Shown here piece after piece: positions 31,960 through 45,016 of a DNA stretch of 64,000 nt. The first letter of the stretch is position 1. The number at the start of each line of letters is the position of its first letter. This DNA is from Dickeya fangzhongdai. GTDB taxonomy: Bacteria; Pseudomonadota; Gammaproteobacteria; Enterobacterales; Enterobacteriaceae. The notes below the pieces were generated by a model. It saw only the letters and a program-made list of their open reading frames with translations, did no database searches and was not told where the DNA came from. The position numbers and the translations under genes were made by a program. The stretch is from positions 4,402,001 to 4,466,000 of the forward strand of contig NZ_CP025003.1 in NCBI RefSeq assembly GCF_002812485.1, given 5' to 3'.

Positions 31960-34068
31960 TCAGAAACCGCTTTCCCGGATCCCCAGCGCCGCCACCCGAC
32001 GCCATACCGCACCGAGGATGGATTCTTTTTCTCCTTCAAGAATGACGCTGCCCCGTAGCGGCTGTTGCGGCGGCGAAAACCGCCCGTCCTGCACCGTAAA
32101 ACGGACGCCATACTGCGCCTGCACCGGTTGGGGGTTATGGTCCCGATCCCGGCGCACGGCGATAGGGCCGTGGCGATCGGACGCCAGCATCTCTTGCTGT
32201 AGCCAGGCCACGCCGGTTGGCGCTATGTCTTTCAACTGCACCGCAATGCGGGGATAAGCCGGGTCATCCGCGATAAAATCACCGGTCATGCCCACCTGAG
32301 CCCGTTTCAGCGTGTCTTCGGGCAAATACCCTTGTACTTTTCCGCTCCCTTGCTCGACGACGCGTAACAAAGGCATGTCGGTGGTCAGCCAGCGGCCTGC
32401 GGTCATATCCCGCGCCACATCTCTGATTTGCCCTGCCTGCGGCGCCGTGATCGACAACCGCTGACGCTGCGCATCCAGTCCCCGATAACGAGCCAACGAT
32501 TCGGCCAGTTGCCTGTCAAGCACCTGGGTTTCGCTGGCGGTTTCCTGACGCCCGGCGCCCCGCTGCCGTTTTTGCTGCAACACCGCAATCTGTTGGCGTT
32601 CAATGTTGATGCGATAATCCAGATCGGACGACGTCAGTTCCAGCAACACCTCGCCGGCTTTCACCTGCTGGCCGTCCGTTACATGCAAGGCTTTAACCTG
32701 TGCGGCAATGGGCGCGTAAAGCACGCTGACGCTTTCAGCCTCCAATACCGCCGGAATACGGACGCTGCCGCGCCAGGGAAACAGCAGAAACAGCAGCACA
32801 GCCGCCAAAATCAACCCCGAACGCCACAGGCTGACAGGATGAGCAGTTTTACGCATGGACCACCAGATATGCGCTTCCTTAACCACTGGAAGCGCGATAA
32901 ACCAACCAATTTCCACCAGCATCAGGACGATGCCGACCACCTTGATAAAAAAGTGATACACCACCAGCGCAATGCCGAAAAACAGAAAGAAACGCCATAT
33001 CCACGAGGCGTATCCCCAGATCAGCAGTTTGCGTTGCATCGCGGGCGACCAGGTTTGCGGCGCCGGGCGGCCGTAGCCAAACAGCGCTTCGCGCAGCCGC
33101 CAGCGACACAGGGCATACGCGCGCTCCTGCAGGTTTTCCACCCGCCAAAAGTCGCTCAGCAGAAAGTACCCGTCAAAACGCATCAACGGGTTGAGGTTAA
33201 CCGCCAGCGTGGTTATCCAGGTTACGCTGGAAAGCATGAAAGCAGCGGTGCGTATCGGTCCGTCAGGCAGCAGCGACCACGCCAGCAGGGCGACGCATGC
33301 CAGCATCAGCTCCGCCAGAATACCGCCCGCGCTGATCAGTAGCCGGGCGTGGCGGTCCCGGAGCTTCCAGGCGTCGCTGACATCGGTATAAAACAGCGGG
33401 AACAGCACGATAAAAGCCACCCCCATGTTTTGCACCCGGCAACCGGCGCGTTTGGCCATAAAAGCATGCCCCAGTTCATGGATGAATTTGGCGCCGACCA
33501 GCGCCACACCGAAGGCGGCCGCCCCTTGCAGGCTGAACAGATGGGGAAAAGAGTGGATATAACGGACCCAGTCCCGGCTGACTAAAAATCCCCCCAGCAG
33601 CAGTATTAGCGGTAACGCGATCCGCAGAAACGGCCGGCCGTAACGTTGCAGCCAGGGCCAGCAACGGCTGAGCACCGGGTCCGGACGCCATAATGGAATC
33701 CGGAAAAACAGATACTGATGCAGCAGGGTTTTCCACAGACTGATCCGCAATGCCGCAGCCTTGATGGCATAGCCTTGCCGTTGCAGCGGGTCGCTGGCGG
33801 CAATCAGATCGTGGTTACGCAGAAACCGCAGCAGTTGTTCCAGTTCTTTATCCTGCAAGGGCAAACCGGGCTCGCGGTTGGCGGCGTCCAGCACCCATTT
33901 GGGATGGCGCAGCGACCAGTGCCGCAACAGACGGATCGCCGACGGCGCCAGTTTAAAGTAGCGCCCGGTGACCGGGTCGGCCAGCACCCACTGCGGCGCG
34001 CCGTCCAGACCGGTGGCGGACTCCACCAGTTGCAGGTCGGTTCTCAGTTCGGGCAGAAAACCACTCAT
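31960..34068 (-). CDS. M50 (site-2-type) metalloprotease fused to a HlyD-like adaptor
   Basis: 702 residues. About residues 20-90 look like a PqqD-type winged-helix domain (VLADPVTGRYFKLAPSAIRLL). Hydrophobic segments then surround the zinc site HELGH (197-201) and the second metal motif NLNPLMRFDG (291-300), as in M50 intramembrane proteases. After several more membrane helices comes a periplasmic adaptor arm: a biotinyl-lipoyl hairpin (YAPIAAQVKALHVTDGQQVKAGEVL), a coiled coil and a beta barrel. It overlaps the upstream adaptor gene by ATGA. Such fusions occur with DUF4347 and tail-collar genes elsewhere, but I know of no settled mechanism. It may process or energise secretion of the neighbouring substrates. 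Confidence 0.88.
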   Translation of the reverse strand: MSGFLPELRTDLQLVESATGLDGAPQWVLADPVTGRYFKLAPSAIRLLRHWSLRHPKWVLDAANREPGLPLQDKELEQLLRFLRNHDLIAASDPLQRQGYAIKAAALRISLWKTLLHQYLFFRIPLWRPDPVLSRCWPWLQRYGRPFLRIALPLILLLGGFLVSRDWVRYIHSFPHLFSLQGAAAFGVALVGAKFIHELGHAFMAKRAGCRVQNMGVAFIVLFPLFYTDVSDAWKLRDRHARLLISAGGILAELMLACVALLAWSLLPDGPIRTAAFMLSSVTWITTLAVNLNPLMRFDGYFLLSDFWRVENLQERAYALCRWRLREALFGYGRPAPQTWSPAMQRKLLIWGYASWIWRFFLFFGIALVVYHFFIKVVGIVLMLVEIGWFIALPVVKEAHIWWSMRKTAHPVSLWRSGLILAAVLLFLLFPWRGSVRIPAVLEAESVSVLYAPIAAQVKALHVTDGQQVKAGEVLLELTSSDLDYRINIERQQIAVLQQKRQRGAGRQETASETQVLDRQLAESLARYRGLDAQRQRLSITAPQAGQIRDVARDMTAGRWLTTDMPLLRVVEQGSGKVQGYLPEDTLKRAQVGMTGDFIADDPAYPRIAVQLKDIAPTGVAWLQQEMLASDRHGPIAVRRDRDHNPQPVQAQYGVRFTVQDGRFSPPQQPLRGSVILEGEKESILGAVWRRVAALGIRESGF

Positions 34069-35384
34069 AGACCGACCGATTGACGCAACACGGCGAGCGG
34101 CCGCCGGAACAGATACACCGCCAGCGGCACATATTCGCCGGAAACTTTAGCGGTACCGCGTAGCCCGATGCGCGGCGGCTCGCCGGTGAAACGCGCATCC
34201 AGCCGGTAAGCCAGGTTGCCCGCCGGGGTCTGTTCCGACTCGTAAGCGACGCGATCCAGCAGGGCGCCATGCGGCGTCACCGGATCGCTATCGAGAAACA
34301 GGGTGATCGGCGCATCCGGCTCCAGTCGAATGGCATCGCCGACATCCAGTTCGATGCGCAGCGATACCGATGCCGGATCGGCTAATTCCATCAATCGTTC
34401 ACCGGTACGGACCGGTTTACCGGTCCAGCGTTCGGCCTCGGCAAACACCGCGATGCCGTCGCGTTCTGCTCGAATTTCAGCGCGACTCAACAAGGCATTG
34501 GCGTAATCACGCTCGGCGCGCTTTTGCGCCACCTGTGCGGCCAGAAAATCCAGCTTCGCCTTGGAATCGGCGTCCTGAAAAGCGCGTTGCGAATTGGCGC
34601 GGTACTCCGCTTCCGCCACATTCAACGCCCGTTCGGCAACATCCGCCTGCGCTTTCAGGGTGGTATCGTCAAAGCGCACCAGCAAGTCGCCTTTGCGCAC
34701 GCTCTGGTTTGGTTGAACGGCAAACGCCTGAATCACGCCATCCAGCGGCGCGGCGACTACTCGCCCGTTGAACGGAATCACCTCTGCCGGAGCAAGCACT
34801 GACTGACGCACCGGGATGAACAGGCACCCGACGAGCAGCAGGCAGGGAATAGCCAGTTTCCACCGCCAGCGGGTGCGCCGCCAGACCGGTTGCGGCTCCA
34901 GCGCCAGCCAGGCATGACTAAACGCATGAGCCAGTTGTTCCGCCAGCAATTGCTCGGCGCTCTGCCAGGGCTGCTCGCGGGCATACCAGATGCCGCCAAA
35001 TGTGCGTCCCTGACGGTCTTGCAGCGGCGCCCACAGCACTTCGGGCGCCGACAACGCCAGCCAGTCATTACGGCTTTGTTGATCCAGCGACGCTGCGGTT
35101 ACCACCGCACACTGCTCATGCTGCTGAGCGTTCTGCAACTGCGCGCCGGCTCGCTCGATAAACGCGACAAAGGGCGCATGCGGCGCCGGCTGAGTCACGC
35201 CAGTCACCGCCCGCACCGTGCCGTTGATCACCAGCGCGGCGTGGCGAAACCCAAACAGCGTCTGGCTGTCGTTAACGATGCAATAAGCCAGCGCTTCGGT
35301 CGTGTTCGCCGAGCGCGCCTGACGTTCGATGTCCAGAAAGCGGGCGAAGATACGTTCGCCGGAAACAGGGGGCGTATTGCTCAC
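34065..35384 (-). CDS. HlyD-like adaptor with N-terminal GAF-like domain
   Basis: 439 residues. Residues 1-165 form a soluble domain with GAF-like character (LFGFRHAALVINGTVRAV...VLWAPLQDRQGRTFGGIWYAR). A single membrane helix (about 176-196) is followed by a HlyD-type adaptor: a lipoyl half-motif (VAAPLDGVIQAFAVQPNQSVRKGDLL), a coiled coil and a beta barrel. The soluble domain would face the cytoplasm, which is unusual for this family and suggests signal or substrate sensing. ATGA overlaps join it to the genes on both sides. Confidence 0.85.
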   Translation of the reverse strand: MSNTPPVSGERIFARFLDIERQARSANTTEALAYCIVNDSQTLFGFRHAALVINGTVRAVTGVTQPAPHAPFVAFIERAGAQLQNAQQHEQCAVVTAASLDQQSRNDWLALSAPEVLWAPLQDRQGRTFGGIWYAREQPWQSAEQLLAEQLAHAFSHAWLALEPQPVWRRTRWRWKLAIPCLLLVGCLFIPVRQSVLAPAEVIPFNGRVVAAPLDGVIQAFAVQPNQSVRKGDLLVRFDDTTLKAQADVAERALNVAEAEYRANSQRAFQDADSKAKLDFLAAQVAQKRAERDYANALLSRAEIRAERDGIAVFAEAERWTGKPVRTGERLMELADPASVSLRIELDVGDAIRLEPDAPITLFLDSDPVTPHGALLDRVAYESEQTPAGNLAYRLDARFTGEPPRIGLRGTAKVSGEYVPLAVYLFRRPLAVLRQSVGL

Positions 35385-36187
35385 GGTTTCTCCGGAAAAT
35401 GTGCTGTGCCACTCATTCCTGCCATCAACGCAGTGTCTTTGGTTTCGATGACGCCGGTCAGGCTGAGAGTCTGGCTGCTTTCATCAATACGCGCCCCCAG
35501 TCTGGATACGCTGGCCTGCAGCGGCGTGCCGGTTTCATCGGGCGTAAACGTAAAGGTCAGCCCGGGTTTCAACATCGACAGCCAGCGGGACGGCACCAGC
35601 AGATTAATCTCCAGATGGCGGTTGTTGACGATATCCAGCACCGGCGCGCCCGGCGCGACGCTTTCATAAGCCTGAGCGCGCCGCTTAACCACCTGACCGT
35701 CGAACGGCGCCAGAATACGGCAACGATTAACCTGAATCTGGTAAACCTGGCTTTCCGCCTGCGATTGCGCCAGACGCGCGGCGGACAAGGATACCGCGTG
35801 CTTTCCCACCGACTTCAGTTGCGCCAGTTGCTGGTTCTGGCTCAGTTCCGCTTCCGCCGCGCGCATCGCCGCCTGAGACGCCGCCAACTGCGCCTGATAG
35901 ATGGCACAGTCAAAACGCGCCAGCAGGTCGCCTTTTTTGAATGACTCCCCTTCCCTGAACGGCATTTCCACAATGCGCCCGGCCAGATCGCTGGAAATCG
36001 TCGCCTGATCCACCGCCACCAGCATCCCACGCGCCTGATTGTCTGCCGTCGCAAGCGGCTGACCCGCGCTAGTGGGAAGCGGGGAAAGTTCGGGAGCGCT
36101 GGCCTGGCTCGCTCCACTGAATCCCGCAGTACAGAAAACCAACACCTTCAACGCATCACAAAACATGAATTTGCTGAAATTATTCAC
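35381..36187 (-). CDS. Periplasmic adaptor subunit (HlyD/RND type)
   Basis: 268 residues with an N-terminal signal sequence (ALKVLVFCTAGFSGASQASA). It then has a lipoyl-like half (ISSDLAGRIVEMPFREGESFKKGDLLARFD), a helical hairpin (AELSQNQQLAQLKSVGKHAVS) and a second lipoyl half (ILAPFDGQVVKRRAQAYESV). This is a minimal membrane-fusion protein without a transmembrane anchor. It is the first gene of the adaptor operon. Confidence 0.85.
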   Translation of the reverse strand: MNNFSKFMFCDALKVLVFCTAGFSGASQASAPELSPLPTSAGQPLATADNQARGMLVAVDQATISSDLAGRIVEMPFREGESFKKGDLLARFDCAIYQAQLAASQAAMRAAEAELSQNQQLAQLKSVGKHAVSLSAARLAQSQAESQVYQIQVNRCRILAPFDGQVVKRRAQAYESVAPGAPVLDIVNNRHLEINLLVPSRWLSMLKPGLTFTFTPDETGTPLQASVSRLGARIDESSQTLSLTGVIETKDTALMAGMSGTAHFPEKP

Positions 36188-38017: not shown

Positions 38018-38626
38018 CTAAAACATCGTTGACGCCGATTTATAAAACATCGATGCAGCGAAAAGAGAGATGACGAGCGAAGCGCCGCGATAAAACAGCG
38101 TTGGCTTTAGCCTGCGCTGACTTGAAGCGTCGTTGAGACTAATCAGCGTGCCGGCGTAGGTCCATATAAAAGAAATGGGAAGCAATGCCAACAGCAGAGC
38201 GAACATCGCTTGAATATAACTGTCTTGATATATGAAAGCCGACGGAGGAATGATGGAATCGGCGAATAAAAAGGCCTTGGGGTTGAGTAAGGTCGTGATA
38301 AAGACCGTGCCGAAAGTGATATTGCCGCTAATTTGATGAAGCGAAAACCGCCACACTTTGATCGCCAAATAAACGACATAACAGGCCGAGAACAATTTAA
38401 TGACGCTCAGCACCAGATTTCCATGTTGTGCCAGATAAGTAAACAACAGCCCCCATGCAGAGACTGCCAATAGATATCCGAGCCATTCTGATAAAATCAG
38501 CTTTATGCTTTTAATAAAACCTTGGGTATAACCAGAACAAAGAAGCAAAGTGTTGGTCGGCCCCGGAATGCTCAGAAATAATGCGATATAGAATATAACT
38601 TTTATGTATTCATTTTCATGAATCAT
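38018..38626 (-). CDS. LysE/RhtB-family amino-acid exporter
   Basis: 202 residues with six hydrophobic helices. The N-terminal PGPTNTLLL motif and the internal LLNPKAFLFADS identify the LysE/RhtB family, whose members export lysine, threonine, homoserine and analogues. It is divergent from an XRE-cupin regulator and lies beside the chlorinated-amino-acid operon. An exporter able to handle threonine-like compounds would fit there. It is AT-richer than the backbone genes. Confidence 0.85.
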   Translation of the reverse strand: MIHENEYIKVIFYIALFLSIPGPTNTLLLCSGYTQGFIKSIKLILSEWLGYLLAVSAWGLLFTYLAQHGNLVLSVIKLFSACYVVYLAIKVWRFSLHQISGNITFGTVFITTLLNPKAFLFADSIIPPSAFIYQDSYIQAMFALLLALLPISFIWTYAGTLISLNDASSQRRLKPTLFYRGASLVISLFAASMFYKSASTMF

Positions 38627-38779
38627 GTTGATATTACCTCAATTAAGCCAACAGTGTTTGATCTGGGTATCGTTCCGGGTTCGGTATACCGATATAGTCC
38701 GCTCCTAAACAAAACAATCACCTTTCTATCTGGATCTGCTAGACTGGGCGCCTTGTCTGATAACTCATTTGGTTTGTTG

Positions 38780-39352
38780 ATGAACACGTCCCAACATCAC
38801 GATAAAGCAGAAACAACATCCATTAATATTGGAAACAAAATCAAACAATTAAGAATGACCAGAAATATTTCTCTTAATGATCTTTCCAGGTTATCAGGCG
38901 TGTCAAAAGCCGCGTTGTCCAAGCTAGAGTCTGGTCACTCGAACCCACGAGTCGATACGTTGGATGCGATTGCCAGCGCCCTGCGAGTTCCTCTAAGCGA
39001 TCTGCTTGCCGTTAATACCAGCGCTTATCCTTACATGGAAAAAGGTATTCCAATGCAAGGGGAATACGCCCAAAAGATGAAATTCCGTATTGGGCTGGGC
39101 AATATCGCTGAAATATGGCATTTGCAAATGAACCCCGGCGTCATTATCAATAGCCCGCCACATGCATCTGGAACACACGAGCATATTCTGGTGCATTCAG
39201 GCTCATTAATGCTCAAGCTTGCCGATGACGAAAGCATCGTGCTTAAAGCGGGCGATTTTTACTGTTTTTCCGGAAACATCACTCACTCTTATATATGCAC
39301 AGATAGTGCGGTCAGTGCGACCGTGGTCATGTCTAACGCTATTCAGGTTTAG
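38780..39352 (+). CDS. XRE-family regulator with C-terminal cupin
   Basis: About 190 residues from the ATG at 38780. It has a helix-turn-helix (KIKQLRMTRNISLNDLSRLSGVSKAALSKLESG) followed by a cupin barrel (HASGTHEHILVHSGSLMLKL...LKAGDFYCF). Such proteins usually sense a small metabolite, often an amino acid or derivative, and regulate adjacent export or metabolism genes. The open frame continues upstream to 38618, but those residues are not protein-like. It is divergent from lysE and convergent with the thioesterase gene, 39 bases apart. A role in regulating the exporter is likely; control of the chlorination operon is possible. Confidence 0.82.
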   Translation: MNTSQHHDKAETTSINIGNKIKQLRMTRNISLNDLSRLSGVSKAALSKLESGHSNPRVDTLDAIASALRVPLSDLLAVNTSAYPYMEKGIPMQGEYAQKMKFRIGLGNIAEIWHLQMNPGVIINSPPHASGTHEHILVHSGSLMLKLADDESIVLKAGDFYCFSGNITHSYICTDSAVSATVVMSNAIQV

Positions 39353-39391: not shown

Positions 39392-40120
39392 TCAGCTATC
39401 CTTTCCTTTCGTATCGACGTCTGCAATAAAGCGAAGAATGATGTCGTAAATATCTTGCTCCTGCTCCGATTGAATAAAATGCCCTCCCGGCACACTCTCC
39501 ATACGATAAATACCGCTGGTACATTCACACCAGCGAGAAGGAGCAAAGGGAAGATACGGGTCGTCCTCTCCGTAGATCACTAACAACGGCACATCCTCCA
39601 GCGGACAAGTGCTTTCGGGCTGAATGGAATTGGCAACGTCCAAATCGGCAGCCAGCACCTGAATAAACTGCTGACGTAACACGTCGTCTTGCGTCAACCA
39701 GTCAGGAAGTTCCCCGAGTTGGGTCGCAAAATGCCATATCGCTTGCTGCGACTCCGGGTTAAGCTCCTGCCACGGAAAGCGCCTGCGGCAATGGATAGGG
39801 TCGTTAGACATCGCCACCAGTACGATATCCCGATCCGGCGTTCTGCTCCGGCAGTAGCCGGCCAGCAAATAGGCCATATAGGCGCCCAGGCTGTGTCCAA
39901 CCAGGATGAGCCGGCCCTGAGGGGGAATGCGCGAGGCAAAGTCATCCACGATACGCCCGGCGTCACGCATCAGTTCTTCCTGACGGCGCCGGCCGCGCCC
40001 CGGCATTTCCATCAGCATGGTGTCGAACTGTGGCGAAAAACGCCGGGCAATCGCGTTCATAGCCGAGGCGTTACCGCCGGCATGATGAAACAGAACCATG
40101 TGATGCTGGGGCTCATTCAT
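39392..40120 (-). CDS. Type II thioesterase (alpha/beta hydrolase)
   Basis: 242 residues from the ATG at 40120. It has GHSLGA with nucleophile Ser77, Asp near 186 (YGEDDPYLP) and His214 (VPGGHF), so the catalytic triad is complete. The N-terminal FHHAGGNASA is typical of stand-alone thioesterases in non-ribosomal peptide clusters, which remove acyl groups from carrier proteins. With one adenylation enzyme and one carrier protein but no condensation domain here, its likely job is to release the chlorinated aminoacyl group as a free amino acid. It is last in the operon and overlaps the EamA gene. Confidence 0.88.
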   Translation of the reverse strand: MNEPQHHMVLFHHAGGNASAMNAIARRFSPQFDTMLMEMPGRGRRRQEELMRDAGRIVDDFASRIPPQGRLILVGHSLGAYMAYLLAGYCRSRTPDRDIVLVAMSNDPIHCRRRFPWQELNPESQQAIWHFATQLGELPDWLTQDDVLRQQFIQVLAADLDVANSIQPESTCPLEDVPLLVIYGEDDPYLPFAPSRWCECTSGIYRMESVPGGHFIQSEQEQDIYDIILRFIADVDTKGKDS

Positions 40121-41033
40121 AGCGTTTACCCTCAAGCACACGCCCTACCAACGCAGCAAAAACGATGACTGCTCCACCGATGCCCTGCCAGACCCCAATC
40201 ACCTCGCCCATAATGGAGACAGCAAAAAATGCGGCAAAAGCGGGCTCCAGCGACAAAATGAGCCCAACCCGAGTCGGACTGGTGAGCTTCGCCGCATAGA
40301 GTTGCATCAGGAATGCAAATGCCGTCGCCAGCAGGCTCAGAAAGAGAATATAGCCCCAGATATCAAGGGAAATGCTGGGGATAGTACGCATAGACTCCGG
40401 ATCGGAAACATAGACAAACGACAAGCCAAGCACGGCGACGGTCAGCAGTTCGACCAGCGTGATATTGATCAGCGAATAGGGTTTGCCGGCCGTCTGCCTG
40501 CCAAACATGAATATCTGGAATCCGCGAATTAATGCCGCCAGCAACACAAGCCAGTCACCGAGGTTAAAGCCGACTTGCCCACCATTGGAAAAGCTTATCA
40601 ACCCGCCGCCAGCCAATGACAGGAAACAGGTAAAATAGATGAGCTTGCTCTGTCTGCGCTTGCCCAGCACCCGTTCATAAAAGGGAACCAGAACCACCGA
40701 CAGTGCAATCAGAAAACCCGCATTGGCAGCGGTAGTATGCTTCACGCCAAGCGTTTCGAGCGTCAAAATGGCGTAGAGCAAGGCACCGAAAATCACACCA
40801 TTAACCACTTCGCCGCGTGTAAAATCGCGCAAGCGGATGCGAGTGCCAATGAACATAAAAGGAACAGCCAGGGCAAAGCGCAGCATCAGGAACAAAGGAA
40901 CAGCCACCCCCGCATGAATGATCATCTGCATCAATGAGTAACTTGCGCCCCATGACAGGGCGACCGCCAGTAATCCCAAATCCACCAGATACAGTCGTGA
41001 GCGTGAAAGTTGCAGGGTCGTCTCATTAGACAT
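40113..41033 (-). CDS. EamA-family (DMT) exporter
   Basis: 306 residues with about ten membrane helices in two EamA repeats (LGLLAVALSWGASYSLMQ..., LGDWLVLLAALIRGFQIFMFG..., LSLEPAFAAFFAVSIMGE). EamA proteins often export amino acids and analogues. The ATG at 41033 lies within the end of the AlaX gene and has GAGGA at proper spacing. Its place inside the operon suggests it exports the product and protects the producer. Confidence 0.88.
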   Translation of the reverse strand: MSNETTLQLSRSRLYLVDLGLLAVALSWGASYSLMQMIIHAGVAVPLFLMLRFALAVPFMFIGTRIRLRDFTRGEVVNGVIFGALLYAILTLETLGVKHTTAANAGFLIALSVVLVPFYERVLGKRRQSKLIYFTCFLSLAGGGLISFSNGGQVGFNLGDWLVLLAALIRGFQIFMFGRQTAGKPYSLINITLVELLTVAVLGLSFVYVSDPESMRTIPSISLDIWGYILFLSLLATAFAFLMQLYAAKLTSPTRVGLILSLEPAFAAFFAVSIMGEVIGVWQGIGGAVIVFAALVGRVLEGKRYE

Positions 41034-41706
41034 TGTCATTCCTCGGGGCGGTATGGCTGGCGTCATAACTGATACGCAGCTGGTTTTTCTTGAATTTGGC
41101 CGATTTGATCGAGAAATCGGCGATCTTACTGAGGTTATCCACGTGCGTTCCGCCACAAGGCATCGCTTCGGTATCGTGAATCAGAGAGTAGCGGGTATCC
41201 CCCTCCAGCCATATCTTGACCTCGCCGCCATCCCTCAGACGTGAGCTGATGCCGGCTTCGATATCCTCAAGCGGCAAGCGATCAACCAGTACCGCGCTGG
41301 AACCCATAGGGGAAAAAACGACGCGAGACTCCCCGGGGAAATGGTGCCCGGCAGTCGCCATCCATCCATACCGACGCATTTCCCAGTTCAGCAAATGCCC
41401 GGCGGTATGCAACGCAGCATTTCGCATACGTTCGGACGCGGATAACCTGGACTCCAACAGGTCCGACTCAGCGGACTTGAGTGGAGATTGCGGATAAACG
41501 ACCACCAGACCGGACGCATCTTTGCGGACGCTAACGGGGATGTCATTGACCCACCCCGTATCTGCGGGCTGCCCCCCGCCCTGCGGGTGAAAAATGTTCT
41601 CCTTCAGGGCTAGCCATGTTCCAAACTCATCAGTGCCGGCGGCAATGACCTCGCTTGTTGCAGAAAAGCAGTAGGTATCATCCAGATAGCGTTGAATTTG
41701 AATCAT
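41026..41706 (-). CDS. AlaX-type trans-editing aminoacyl-tRNA deacylase
   Basis: 226 residues. The zinc site of the AlaRS/ThrRS editing domain is complete: HTAGH (His100, His104) and CGGTH (Cys183, His187). FHPQGGGQPADTG is the usual N-terminal AlaX signature. AlaX proteins hydrolyse mischarged tRNAs, classically Ser-tRNA(Ala). There is no AlaRS synthetase part. Lying between the halogenase and the exporter, and overlapping the latter, it is most simply a self-protection enzyme that clears tRNA charged with the chlorinated analogue. That role is inferred; the editing chemistry is well established for the family. Confidence 0.9.
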   Translation of the reverse strand: MIQIQRYLDDTYCFSATSEVIAAGTDEFGTWLALKENIFHPQGGGQPADTGWVNDIPVSVRKDASGLVVVYPQSPLKSAESDLLESRLSASERMRNAALHTAGHLLNWEMRRYGWMATAGHHFPGESRVVFSPMGSSAVLVDRLPLEDIEAGISSRLRDGGEVKIWLEGDTRYSLIHDTEAMPCGGTHVDNLSKIADFSIKSAKFKKNQLRISYDASHTAPRNDNV

Positions 41707-41720
41707 TTGGGGGCTCCTTT

Positions 41721-42668
41721 TTATAGGGTTTCAGTCAGGGGAGTGAAGGGTTGCCCGAGCAGGTTATTTGAAGCGATACGGTTTCTTCCGTTGAGGCTCC
41801 GGCCTGAAACAATAACGCACCCAAACTTATCGAGCGGAATACTGCCGCCGTACTCCTGCACGACGTCGGTATCGGGATAGATATCGACAACGCTTGGCGC
41901 ATAGCGCGTGGCAAACCCCATACGGAAGTCTTTTTTGGACGAGTTGGGATAGGAAGCGTGCATCAGCGTGGACCAGAAGATAACGCATTGGCCCGCCTTC
42001 ATTACCAATGGAACCGCTTTGCTTTCGTCTGGTTTCCAGTCCGGCTCGATTTGCAGTTCGCGGTAGTCATAGCCAAAGAACCCCCGGCTTTTACCCTCTT
42101 TCGCGCGGTTATTGATAATATCTGTCTGATATGCCATCGACTTGGTTTCGTCGTAATTCATCTTGTGGTGCGTGCCGGGCATGATTTCAAGACAGCCATT
42201 TTCAATCGTGGCGTCGGTAAAGGCCGTCCAGACGGTAAGCGTTCCCTTGCCGAAGCGATCTTCCGTTTCGCCGGGCCATAGAATCTGCGGCTTGCCGCTG
42301 GCGTTGGCGAAGGTGTCGGCCTGATGCCAGTCAGTCCCCTCATCCCCCGGATATTTTGGGAAAAACTCGGTCCGCCAGCACAGCACATCCTTGCCCAGAA
42401 TATCGGAAACAGGGGCGACGATACGTGGATTGGTAATATGCCGGCTAAGGAGTTCAACATCCAGATGACGATCATAATTGGAGATGTTTGTAGCCGCGCT
42501 GTAGGAGTCGGATGGATAGGCGGCGTTACTCCGGTCAGGTAATTGGCGACGCACTTTATTCCAGATTTCATTCATTTCATCCGGAGTATAAATAGTTAAC
42601 GGGCCGATATAACCGTTGCGATGAAAGCCATCCAATTGTTCTTCTGTCAGGTGTAATGTCTTACTCAT
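41721..42668 (-). CDS. SyrB2-like non-haem Fe(II)/2-oxoglutarate halogenase
   Basis: 315 residues, very close to SyrB2, the threonine chlorinase of syringomycin synthesis, along its whole length (for example [20 protein letters not shown] and MHASYP). The iron site reads His115-Gln-Ala117 ... His237. The carboxylate of ordinary hydroxylases is replaced by Ala, which opens a site for chloride; this is the hallmark of the aliphatic halogenases. Arg255 is placed to bind 2-oxoglutarate. These enzymes act only on an aminoacyl group held on a carrier protein, and the carrier gene lies immediately upstream. The expected reaction is chlorination of the methyl group of threonyl-S-carrier. Confidence 0.93.
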
Positions 42669-42691
42669 TTTACATATCCTCTGTTAGGGAA

Positions 42692-42958
42692 CTATTTGGC
42701 TGCAAAGAAAACGTCTTTTAATGTCGTGTTATATAAACGCTCCATTGATAGCGTAAGTCCGAATTCTTTTTTAACCCTTTCATTTAACGAAATAGCAATC
42801 ATCGAGTGACCGCCTGCGTCGAGAAAGTTATCGCCGGGTTTAACCGACTGCTCCAGGATATCGCTCAGCCACAGTAAATATTGCTCTAGTGCTTTTTCCT
42901 TCTGGGCTGTTTTATTCTGGATATGGTCTTGGGAATTTAAAGCATCAGTGACAGTCAT
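42692..42958 (-). CDS. Free-standing peptidyl (aminoacyl) carrier protein
   Basis: 88 residues. The thiolation motif DNFLDAGGHSMIAISL holds the phosphopantetheine attachment site Ser52. It is a single carrier domain with no fused partner, unlike SyrB1, where adenylation and carrier domains are joined. It sits three bases after the adenylation gene and before the halogenase. A phosphopantetheinyl transferase must come from elsewhere in the genome. Confidence 0.92.
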   Translation of the reverse strand: MTVTDALNSQDHIQNKTAQKEKALEQYLLWLSDILEQSVKPGDNFLDAGGHSMIAISLNERVKKEFGLTLSMERLYNTTLKDVFFAAK

Positions 42959-42961
42959 GAT

Positions 42962-44518
42962 TTACTCCATTGAATGCAAAATTAATTTTTTATCAACCTT
43001 TCCGTTTACCGTTTTTGGCATCACGTCGACTCGCCTGTAACGCATCGGACGCATATATACAGGCAAAGCGAGTCGGGCCAGAGACTTCAACTTCTCCTTT
43101 ACATCACCTTCTGCAATCTTCGATGAAGTGGTAAAGAAACAGATCAAGTGATGACCATGCATTTCGGTCTTTGCCGCCAGCACTGAAATGTCGTCAATGT
43201 CGTCTATCTGTGCCAGGACAGATTCGATTTCGCCAGTTTCAATCCTGAATCCATTAATTTTCACCTGGTCGTCGCATCGACCAAGATAGAGCAGTTCACC
43301 GTCATGGTTATGCTTTACCACATCACCGGAACAATAATATCTTCGCGATACACCCTCTGTTTCCAGCCAGATAAATTTTCGGCTTTCGTCGTTGTTTATA
43401 TTCAGGTATCCATGAGTAACCTGTGGACCGGATAACAGAAGCTCACCACCTTCCTCTGCGGAAGGCTCGTTTCCGATAGGTCTAATAATGTAATGAAAAT
43501 CTGGCAGCACTCGCCCAATATTGGAGTTGGGGTTGATTAAATCGGCGTCGCTGACAATGTGCCAACTGGTATGCACCGTCGTTTCGGTGATGCCGTACAT
43601 ATTCACCAGCATGGGGGAATGTAATCCAAAATGATTATGCCAACGTTTCAGCGTTTGGAAATTCAATCGTTCCCCACCAAAAATAATGCAACGTAGCGAG
43701 AGTTCGTCTGGTTTAAATTGGCAGAGTTTATCGGCATTCACAGAAAATGCGGTGGGTGTTTGATTTAATAACGTAATATTTTCTTCTTTAATTAGTCTGG
43801 CCAGAGCATCCGGAACAATTCTGGTTTCATCGTCAGGTATAACCAACTTTCCGCCATAACCCAGAACCGACCATATTTCCCATACTGAAAAGTCAAATGC
43901 ATAGGAGTGATACAACAGCGTTGCGTCTTGTTGGTTGAAATTATAAATAGCGGCGGTAGCGGAAAATAATGCTTCAAGATTGCCGTGGGTAATCGGCACA
44001 CCTTTGGGTTTTCCTGTGGTACCTGAGGTGTAGATGATATAAGCCGTGTTTTCGAGCCGTGACTGATCGTATATGTCGGATGAAGCAGAAGCAGACGTCA
44101 AAGCCTGTATGTGCACATTTTTGACATCCCGATGAGGAGTCATGTCGCTATCGGAAATAATCAAAGCGGGCCTGGCGTCATTCACGATCAGTTGGTTTCT
44201 TTCCAGCGGCGCCTTCTTATCCAGAGGAACATAAGCAGCCCCGACATATTGCACGGCGAGCAATGCCGCGATCAGCTCTTTGGAAGGGGTAAGTTCGACG
44301 GCGACGCGGTTACCCGGCACCACCTGCAATTCACGCAACGCGCTGGCGATATTGAGGATCAAGCCCTTCATGGCCTGGTAGGTGAGACGTGTTTCGCGAT
44401 CTTTGACGGCGATGCGGTCGGGATACTTTTCCGCCGCTGCCAGAAAGCACCCCAAGAGTGTCCTTCTCGGCTGCGTGGATGAGGGCTTAGCGTTCACACC
44501 ATCCTCCTTTTCGTTCAC
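42962..44518 (-). CDS. Free-standing adenylation enzyme, predicted L-threonine specific
   Basis: 518 residues with all core motifs (YIIYTSGTTGKPKG, YHSYAFDFSVWEIW, NMYGITETT, YYCSGD, GRCDDQVKINGFRIE, NGKVDKK). The ten specificity residues read by alignment to GrsA are Asp209, Phe210, Trp213, Asn252, Ile279, Gly281, Met307, Val315, His316 and the C-terminal Lys. This gives DFWNIGMVHK, the known threonine code. There is no condensation, carrier or thioesterase domain. It is first in the operon and loads the small carrier protein encoded next. Confidence 0.93.
   Translation of the reverse strand: MNEKEDGVNAKPSSTQPRRTLLGCFLAAAEKYPDRIAVKDRETRLTYQAMKGLILNIASALRELQVVPGNRVAVELTPSKELIAALLAVQYVGAAYVPLDKKAPLERNQLIVNDARPALIISDSDMTPHRDVKNVHIQALTSASASSDIYDQSRLENTAYIIYTSGTTGKPKGVPITHGNLEALFSATAAIYNFNQQDATLLYHSYAFDFSVWEIWSVLGYGGKLVIPDDETRIVPDALARLIKEENITLLNQTPTAFSVNADKLCQFKPDELSLRCIIFGGERLNFQTLKRWHNHFGLHSPMLVNMYGITETTVHTSWHIVSDADLINPNSNIGRVLPDFHYIIRPIGNEPSAEEGGELLLSGPQVTHGYLNINNDESRKFIWLETEGVSRRYYCSGDVVKHNHDGELLYLGRCDDQVKINGFRIETGEIESVLAQIDDIDDISVLAAKTEMHGHHLICFFTTSSKIAEGDVKEKLKSLARLALPVYMRPMRYRRVDVMPKTVNGKVDKKLILHSME

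Positions 44519-44940: not shown

Positions 44941-45016
<76 letters not shown>

Follow-up and report, generated by a model that had tools for sequence, protein, structure and literature searches.

A horizontally moved gene cassette of Dickeya predicted to make free 4-chloro-L-threonine

Gene content of the locus

The window analysed here, a stretch of 64,000 nucleotides of Dickeya fangzhongdai (contig NZ_CP025003.1, positions 4,402,001 to 4,466,000), contains an operon of six packed genes, next to which lie genes for a regulator and a second predicted exporter (Table 1). The initial annotation had read six tightly packed genes with named functions, and these assignments are confirmed by the open reading frames, their coordinates, their families and their motifs. 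The conserved motifs are intact in the halogenase (WHQADTF), the carrier protein (GGHS, with the phosphopantetheine serine lying within LDAGGHSMIA), the thioesterase (GHSLG; its structural and named relatives are PDB 6vap, RifR and YbtT) and the AlaX protein (the zinc ligands HxxxH and CxxxH). The adenylation enzyme probably starts at a GTG seven codons into its frame (position 44497), which has a better Shine-Dalgarno sequence. The adenylation (A) enzyme and the carrier (T) protein are encoded by separate open reading frames, unlike the A-T didomain of SyrB1, and a Pfam search of all six operon proteins found no condensation (C) domain. Promoter-like sites number 7, as against 9.6 in shuffled sequences, and terminator-like sites 14, as against 8.7 (sd 3.1); neither kind of site enters the interpretation.

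Table 1. Positions in the window of the operon and neighbouring features
Feature	Position	Strand	Basis and remarks
Operon of six packed genes	39392-44518	minus	Open reading frames
Stand-alone adenylation (A) enzyme	42962-44518	minus	GTG start; AMP-binding (Pfam) 253.7 bits
Stand-alone carrier (T) protein	42692-42958	minus	PP-binding (Pfam) 34.3 bits
SyrB2-type non-heme Fe/2-oxoglutarate halogenase	41721-42668	minus	PhyH (Pfam) 140.2 bits
AlaX-M-type trans-editing protein (predicted chloro-threonyl-tRNA deacylase)	41026-41706	minus	tRNA_SAD (Pfam) 24.2 bits
EamA/DMT exporter (predicted)	40113-41156 (open frame); likely start ~41039, overlapping AlaX	minus	EamA (Pfam) 80.2 bits; start context
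Type II thioesterase (TE)	39392-40141; likely start 40120	minus	Thioesterase (Pfam) 78.0 bits; start context
XRE-cupin regulator	38618-39352; likely start ~38780	plus	HTH_3 56.1 bits, Cupin_2 32.8 bits; convergent with operon
LysE-family amino-acid exporter (predicted)	38018-38626	minus	LysE (Pfam) 37.4 bits; divergent from regulator
tRNA-Gly(gcc)	44941-45016	minus	ARAGORN; flanks insertion

The specificity code of the A enzyme, obtained by alignment, is DFWNIGMVHK, which is of the threonine type. A threonine-type code, DFW[N/S][I/V]GMVHK, is present in 15 of 15 complete AlaX-associated A domains examined, that of the window included, and in one partial domain (locus L027); the syringomycin-type loci aligned with them carry DFWSVGMVHK. 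The enzyme is homologous to PDB 5n9w ("Adenylation domain", E 6e-105), which we take to be Thr1 of Streptomyces OH-5093. The halogenase scores 443.2 bits against the NCBIfam model TIGR01762 "chlorinating enzyme" (cut-off 226.3), its residues 1-308 align with SyrB2 (PDB 2fct; E 4.4e-126), and it shares 60-63% identity with the halogenases of several syringomycin-type loci in Pseudomonas. In the alignment of WHQADTF with SyrB2, HxA replaces HxD/E, leaving a site open for chloride; the HxG/A motif is described as a halogenase hallmark in the available text of one study (PMC12171316). The code, the Pfam and TIGR01762 matches and the 2fct alignment support the original reading of a threonine-coded A enzyme, a single carrier protein and a SyrB2-like halogenase; its exporter and thioesterase are supported as well.

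The AlaX protein has a predicted AlaX/AlaRS editing fold, lies barely above the tRNA_SAD cut-off of 24.0 bits, and scores 57.5 bits, far under the cut-off of 300, against the NCBIfam AlaXM equivalog. Relatives about 45-52% identical were found in Providencia, and no record of that name figures in the top 120 of the 2,407 halogenase matches. A Klebsiella AlaX protein (34%) is encoded between LysR and response-regulator genes, some kb from ileS, and not in a cassette. In a larger AlaX tree (FastTree, 136 rows), the 17 rows taken from the loci are scattered among database sequences, and loci L036 and L037 appear as long rows; this tree neither shows nor excludes a single cassette-specific AlaX clade, and that idea was dropped.

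Distribution and mobility of the cassette

How widely the six-gene set occurs had been raised in the initial annotation. Among the best 80 of 247 halogenase loci, AlaX is present in 13, and all six genes lie within 4.5 kb on one strand in 10; the set also recurs, together with a phosphopantetheinyl transferase (PPTase) gene, on a plasmid of Salmonella whose typing is conjugative. Condensation domains are found in the flanks (up to 8 kb per side) of one of the 13 loci with AlaX, versus 40 of the 67 without it, kinship between loci being ignored in these counts. None of the 67 loci without AlaX has an EamA relative on the same strand within 4.5 kb, or an XRE relative at any position. XRE relatives are present in 9 of the 13 AlaX loci and LysE relatives in three (L021, L022 and L026), and the Salmonella plasmid carries both with the six-gene set, its LysE relative being 50% identical and its XRE-cupin relative annotated at 573 bp. 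From these occurrences, the XRE-cupin regulator and the LysE exporter are counted as part of the cassette unit. An examination of 17 AlaX-linked loci, ORF by ORF, identified the PPTase as the sole extra gene family recurring in at least three genera; it adjoins the six-gene set in Kosakonia, Pluralibacter and Halomonas, as it does on the Salmonella plasmid, and the remaining recurrent ORFs are nearly all out-of-frame over the eight known genes. Several loci are incomplete in the available assemblies or by our matches: the contig of L025 ends after EamA and its TE was not seen, L037 has neither an A nor an EamA match nearby, L032 has no carrier match, and the A gene of L027 is divided between two frames (the genome of L027, G007, and G198 appear to be the identical genome, with equal match coordinates).

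In the halogenase tree, the proteobacterial AlaX-linked rows form a cluster separate from the syringomycin group, with an SH-aLRT of 83 for 15 rows and of 96 for the 14 rows other than Halomonas; the actinobacterial AlaX-linked halogenases of L032 and L038 fall outside this proteobacterial group, and placement is uncertain for the long rows L036 and L037. In a plasmid search, 27 records had a halogenase match with an E-value of at most 1e-60, one of them more than 80% identical. No match to the halogenase pattern was found in viral contigs, and a nucleotide search of 5,426 E. coli genomes with 3.5 kb of the operon found no match.

The same tRNA-Gly is present at the site in eight of eight genus-mates compared, five of nine genomes of the genus lack the cassette there, and the halogenase is present in three of the nine. 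The cassette is horizontally moved and lies in inserted DNA beside tRNA-Gly. The host had been guessed from the letters to be a plant-associated enterobacterium, which fits the second contig of the genome (5,284 bases), 99.8% identical over its full length to Dickeya fangzhongdai plasmids from pear, Dickeya being a genus of plant soft-rot bacteria. E. coli and Salmonella carry this plasmid too, at about 99.1-99.2% identity.

Predicted product and alternative readings

We consider it probable that this horizontally moved cassette makes free 4-chloro-L-threonine, and that its host is protected by the dedicated tRNA-editing protein and the exporters. The A enzyme would activate L-Thr and load it on the holo-carrier, and the halogenase would chlorinate C4 of Thr-S-carrier with Fe(II), 2-oxoglutarate, O2 and chloride. 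The thioesterase would then release 4-chloro-threonine for export, presumably via EamA and LysE. Any chloro-threonine put on tRNA-Thr by ThrRS would be cleared by AlaX, and the XRE-cupin protein may adjust expression by sensing the amino acid or the state it is in.

Within the locus, the strongest indication that free chloro-threonine enters the cytosol is the AlaX protein, which the initial annotation listed but left out of its argument. The available text of published studies indicates that free 4-halothreonine requires tRNA deacylation and export, by FthB and FthC (PMC7408626), and that ThrRS accepts 4-fluorothreonine very well as a substrate (PMC10250548). FthB is related to ProXp-ST1 and not to AlaX, according to the part of the literature available to us (PMC11295145); homology between AlaX and FthB was accordingly dropped, and the parallel in immunity is one of function instead of descent. 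The AlaX match on the S. cattleya plasmid (L114) also speaks for dropping it, since Pfam found no transaldolase among seven proteins of that neighbourhood, AlaX included. It seems to us an evenly balanced question whether AlaX is an alanyl-type editing enzyme re-targeted to chloro-threonyl-tRNA(Thr), having evolved independently as a counterpart of FthB, in a mobile, plasmid-borne and self-contained antimetabolite cassette that is shared among Gammaproteobacteria and gives its host a free chlorinated amino acid together with translational immunity.

The initial annotation had derived the free product from the local lack of a condensation domain, reasoning that no peptide could be built. This argument is too weak, since the host genome has 17 condensation-family matches and four NRPS clusters, and one synthetase ends in C-T without an A domain. 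This protein of 3236 aa (G000:C1:4886310-4896020) has three A, three C and four T domains, and its last 587 residues have their nearest relatives in sequences labelled Dickeya oryzae (86%) and Vibrio parahaemolyticus (57%). Such an ending makes a SyrE-like use in trans a real rival despite the absence of a local C domain: chlorinated threonine would be passed to the A-less terminal C-T of the distant synthetase and end a chlorinated tetrapeptide, with AlaX and the exporters handling leakage, much as SyrE receives 4-chloro-threonine from SyrB1 (according to the available text of PMC8949500). At least four condensation matches were found in 9 of 13 genomes examined, and peptide incorporation is conceivable in those genomes. 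We nevertheless hold this reading to be unlikely. The operon itself has no A-less acceptor module, and the only one found lies about 440 kb away, in a synthetase with an EamA protein, a thioesterase and a PPTase of its own. Among nine genomes of the genus, the A-less C-T end is matched in full only by the window's own genome, and the halogenase is present in genus-mates G015 and G016, neither of which has a close match to that end. The cassette also occurs in Kosakonia and Pluralibacter, where the single condensation match of either genome lies in an EntF-like protein, and in a Halomonas MAG with zero. A SyrC-like query (L070:9005-10213, named by position) had no match in the genome at E 10, in a search run without a positive control.

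As a separate observation, G015 and G016 encode a polyketide protein ending in ACP-C, which is another C domain without an A domain.

An NRPS elsewhere that uses the chlorinated residue had been named beforehand as what would speak against a free product; a candidate does exist, whereas the cassette occurs without it in two genus-mates and in genomes without an evident suitable NRPS, which favours the free amino acid. Free 4-chloro-threonine therefore stands as the most likely product on comparative evidence, and not by the local argument first advanced for it.

It is improbable that chlorinated threonine is an intermediate only, converted while on the carrier, or by a subsequent enzyme, into an exported small molecule such as an epoxide or a dehydrated or hydroxylated amino acid; SyrB2-type enzymes can hydroxylate too, as stated in the available text of PMC6864650, whereas the PPTase is the only additional family to recur across genera in the AlaX-linked loci. 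Specificity codes predict imperfectly and neighbouring Streptomyces loci show different ones (e.g. DVQFVAQVVK), but a substrate other than threonine, and hence another halogenated product, is very improbable given that the code of the A enzyme is identical to, or within one or two conservative steps of, those of the aligned syringomycin-type loci, and that SyrB2 and 5n9w (taken to be Thr1) are among the structurally solved relatives.

If the prediction of free 4-chloro-threonine is correct, free halogenated amino acids would be no actinomycete curiosity but a spreading trait, competitive or directed at the host, of Gammaproteobacteria associated with plants, insects and animals, and three small proteins and a thioesterase would suffice for the predicted chemistry. 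The built-in AlaX protein raises the question of whether trans-editing enzymes of unrelated fold have been repeatedly recruited for immunity to halo-amino acids.

Comparison with known systems

Streptomyces sp. OH-5093 reportedly makes free 4-chlorothreonine via Thr1, Thr2 and Thr3, and a publication on this by its title is cited in PMC8949500 and PMC11427300. That pathway, compared here by these three core genes, shares with the cassette a stand-alone A enzyme, a stand-alone carrier, a SyrB2-type halogenase and, by prediction, a free amino acid product, whereas the cassette is gammaproteobacterial, compact and mobile, and includes AlaX, EamA and an XRE-cupin regulator. A search of the open-access literature by title and the start of the abstract found nothing on free chlorothreonine from Gammaproteobacteria or on the cassette, either of which may nonetheless have been published. 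The syringomycin system (SyrB1/SyrB2/SyrC/SyrE) is similar in its activation of threonine and its carrier-bound chlorination, both predicted for the cassette, and differs in that the cassette has separate A and T proteins, no SyrE nearby and a halogenase placed elsewhere in the tree. A chlorinating enzyme of Pectobacterium, as far as the available text of its description goes, is located between NRPS/PKS genes, a setting unlike that of the cassette. The AlaX-M trans-editing proteins of Pyrococcus (2e1b, 9iuw) are 29% identical to the operon AlaX, which, unlike them, is tied to a biosynthetic cassette and has tRNA-Thr, not tRNA-Ala, as its predicted target. FthB and FthC of the 4-fluorothreonine producer Streptomyces cattleya offer the parallel of a tRNA deacylase and an exporter guarding against a free 4-halothreonine, as predicted for the cassette, and differ in fold, the ProXp-ST1-related FthB (in the available text of PMC11295145) being unrelated to the AlaX/AlaRS editing fold of the cassette protein. 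The cassette would be a variant of the already known 4-chlorothreonine pathway, with a predicted product and a predicted editing activity.

Composition of the cassette

The six-gene cassette of Dickeya fangzhongdai probably serves to make and export free 4-chloro-threonine, with a predicted translational immunity built into the same operon. Its ORFs follow one another in a single direction on the window's minus strand (44518-39392); with the EamA exporter and the thioesterase read from their likely internal starts, neighbouring genes are at most 23 bases apart or overlap slightly. The families recognized in the initial annotation were confirmed by Pfam and NCBIfam: an amino-acid adenylation enzyme, a carrier, a chlorinating enzyme, a tRNA_SAD/AlaX protein, an EamA exporter and a thioesterase. 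The halogenase aligns nearly end to end with SyrB2 (PDB 2fct, E 4.4e-126) and with CytC3, and retains an intact motif region (WHQADTF). In the alignment, the ten positions of the specificity code give DFWNIGMVHK for the adenylation enzyme, a threonine-type code; Pseudomonas loci of the syringomycin type in that alignment, which read DFWSVGMVHK, provide an internal control. This enzyme is homologous to PDB 5n9w, Thr1 of the Streptomyces 4-chlorothreonine pathway; linear gramicidin synthase entries score somewhat higher, with two domains summed there. Associated features are listed in the table.

Coordinates of features associated with the cassette or its relatives (plain numbers are window positions)
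Feature	Position	Strand	Remarks
XRE-cupin regulator	38618-39352	convergent with operon	recurs with the set in part of the relatives
LysE exporter	38018-38626		recurs with the set in part of the relatives
tRNA-Gly(gcc)	44941-45016		one flank of the unit in the window's genus
NRPS, 3236 aa, 3 A + 3 C + 4 T	G000:C1:4886310-4896020 (L014 8310-18020)	minus	domain matches
Phosphopantetheinyl transferase beside cassette	L115 11656-12354 (Salmonella plasmid); L021 12624-13334; L036 12127-12894

Recurrence and phylogeny

The breadth of the set, for which the initial annotation had proposed a homology search, was assessed in 80 named halogenase loci, the best of 247. Among these 80, an AlaX relative lies within 4.5 kb of the halogenase on the same strand in 13, and the set is complete in ten: Kosakonia, Pluralibacter, Prodigiosinella, Xenorhabdus szentirmaii, X. 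griffiniae, Photorhabdus tasmaniensis, Pseudomonas trivialis, P. floridensis, a Halomonas MAG and Streptomyces sp. CB02923. It is partial in Vibrio ruber (where the contig ends before any thioesterase), Saccharopolyspora and Salinisphaera. In the assembly of X. griffiniae VH1 the adenylation gene is split across two frames (L027 5994-7600), so that either the gene is disrupted or the sequence contains an error. The 67 loci of the same 80 that lack AlaX have no EamA relative within 4.5 kb and no XRE relative anywhere in the locus. A condensation domain was found in the available flanks (up to 8 kb a side) of one of the 13 AlaX loci versus 40 of the 67 others (Fisher p 0.0006, shared ancestry ignored). 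Comparison of 17 AlaX-linked loci ORF by ORF yielded one further gene family in at least three genera, a phosphopantetheinyl transferase (Kosakonia, Pluralibacter, Halomonas and the Salmonella plasmid). Nine more ORF sets recur, but their coordinates place nearly all of them over known genes, on the opposite strand or in another frame. An adjoining transferase would render the cassette self-sufficient in a new host; none lies next to the window's copy.

In a halogenase tree of 87 rows, with SH-aLRT as the sole support measure, the 15 proteobacterial AlaX rows form one group (83; 96 minus Halomonas), apart from the syringomycin group. A larger half of the tree (83) joins them with actinobacterial loci having carrier and thioesterase relatives beside the halogenase, and the two actinobacterial AlaX rows (L032, L038) are placed elsewhere within it; L036 and L037 are long rows. 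Proteins 45-52% identical to the window's AlaX (P0151-P0167), several labelled Providencia, were also found, and that name is absent among the best 120 halogenase matches; they may belong to another pathway or to immunity alone. A protein labelled Dickeya chrysanthemi shares 99.6% identity with the AlaX of the genus-mate G015, and the AlaX of Prodigiosinella (L023) is 99.5% identical to P0128, labelled Brenneria uluponensis, reflecting either recent cassette exchange or a matter of naming.

Free amino acid or peptide

The initial annotation held that no peptide can be built for want of a condensation domain. This is true of the operon, but the genome does contain peptide synthetases, with 17 condensation matches in four clusters (the family also catches epimerization domains). 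At G000:C1:2990246-3021905, NRPS matches adjoin a 5390-aa multi-carrier frame, a region resembling a zeamine cluster. A 3236-aa NRPS could receive the chlorinated threonine in trans: its match positions give the order A-T-C-A-T-C-A-T-C-T, the final C being followed by T with no intervening A, and its third A domain also bears the threonine code. According to PMC8949500, SyrE receives 4-Cl-Thr from SyrB1 via SyrC using such a C-T architecture. An EamA exporter, a thioesterase and a phosphopantetheinyl transferase of its own accompany the 3236-aa NRPS. The nearest relatives of its C-terminal part carry the labels Dickeya oryzae (86%) and Vibrio parahaemolyticus (57%). A search of the window's genome for a SyrC-like protein, run without a positive control, gave no match.

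A synthetase elsewhere using the chlorinated residue had been named at the outset as evidence against a free product; this A-less C-T candidate exists, but the halogenase occurs without a close match to its C-T end in two genus-mates, G015 and G016. Among nine genus genomes, the halogenase is present in these two and the window's, and the C-T end has a full match in the window's alone (1469 bits), the next best in the genus being 253 bits (32%) in the halogenase-free G018. G015 has five condensation matches (three in a 2704-aa frame, one in a 343-aa frame immediately preceding, one ending a polyketide protein) and G016 four (three in a 2901-aa frame, one ending a polyketide protein); by size and layout, the 2704/2901-aa protein is taken for a putative siderophore synthetase. 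Thirteen named genomes with cassette relatives, of unstated completeness, were also scored. Nine are uninformative either way because each has from 4 to at least 62 condensation matches. The Halomonas MAG has none, Salinisphaera japonica a single one (E 1e-10), and Kosakonia arachidis and the Pluralibacter MAG one apiece, each in a protein for which EntF is the top-scoring model (1987 and 2145 bits against a whole-protein cut-off of 2400, both proteins being incomplete in the stretches analysed).

Mobility and distribution

The Salmonella enterica plasmid NZ_CP030220.1, typed as conjugative and IncI1, carries A, carrier, chlorinating enzyme, AlaX relative, DMT exporter, hydrolase, XRE regulator, LysE-like ORF and phosphopantetheinyl transferase genes, which would cover all the needs of the predicted pathway. 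In Dickeya, the unit lies between the tRNA and a conserved block ending near 36048. Judged by translations alone, the block (window 31960-36187) encodes an M50-type peptidase/secretion-like protein and HlyD-type proteins. In five of the nine genus genomes (G014, G017, G019, G020, G021) these two flanks lie ~340-1,850 bases apart with no cassette between them. The cassette occupies this site in G015 and in G016, the latter with ~6.4 kb extra between cassette and tRNA. In G018 the six genes are gone and a remnant is left (L142 7713-11587), comprising LysE and a portion of the regulator region and adjoining ORFs that are transposase-like by translation. The GC content of the cassette is 0.43-0.56, versus 0.52-0.66 (mostly >0.56) in the flanks. 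The trait is rare and patchy: among 394 genomes sampled from the order, AlaX (E 1e-40) was found in two, both with the halogenase, and three others have no AlaX alongside their halogenase (E 1e-60, 54-55%). The host also has a small plasmid of mobilizable type (L155, G000:C2:1-5284), a 5,284-base second contig 99.8% identical over its full length to D. fangzhongdai plasmids; near-identical records, with annotated Kiwa-like anti-phage genes, come from Dickeya as well as from E. coli and Salmonella.

Comparison with known systems

The predicted cassette pathway would work like the Streptomyces 4-chlorothreonine pathway, adding an FthB-like safeguard. What sets the cassette apart from that pathway and FthB is its host range, its compact layout, its mobility and the fold of its editing protein.
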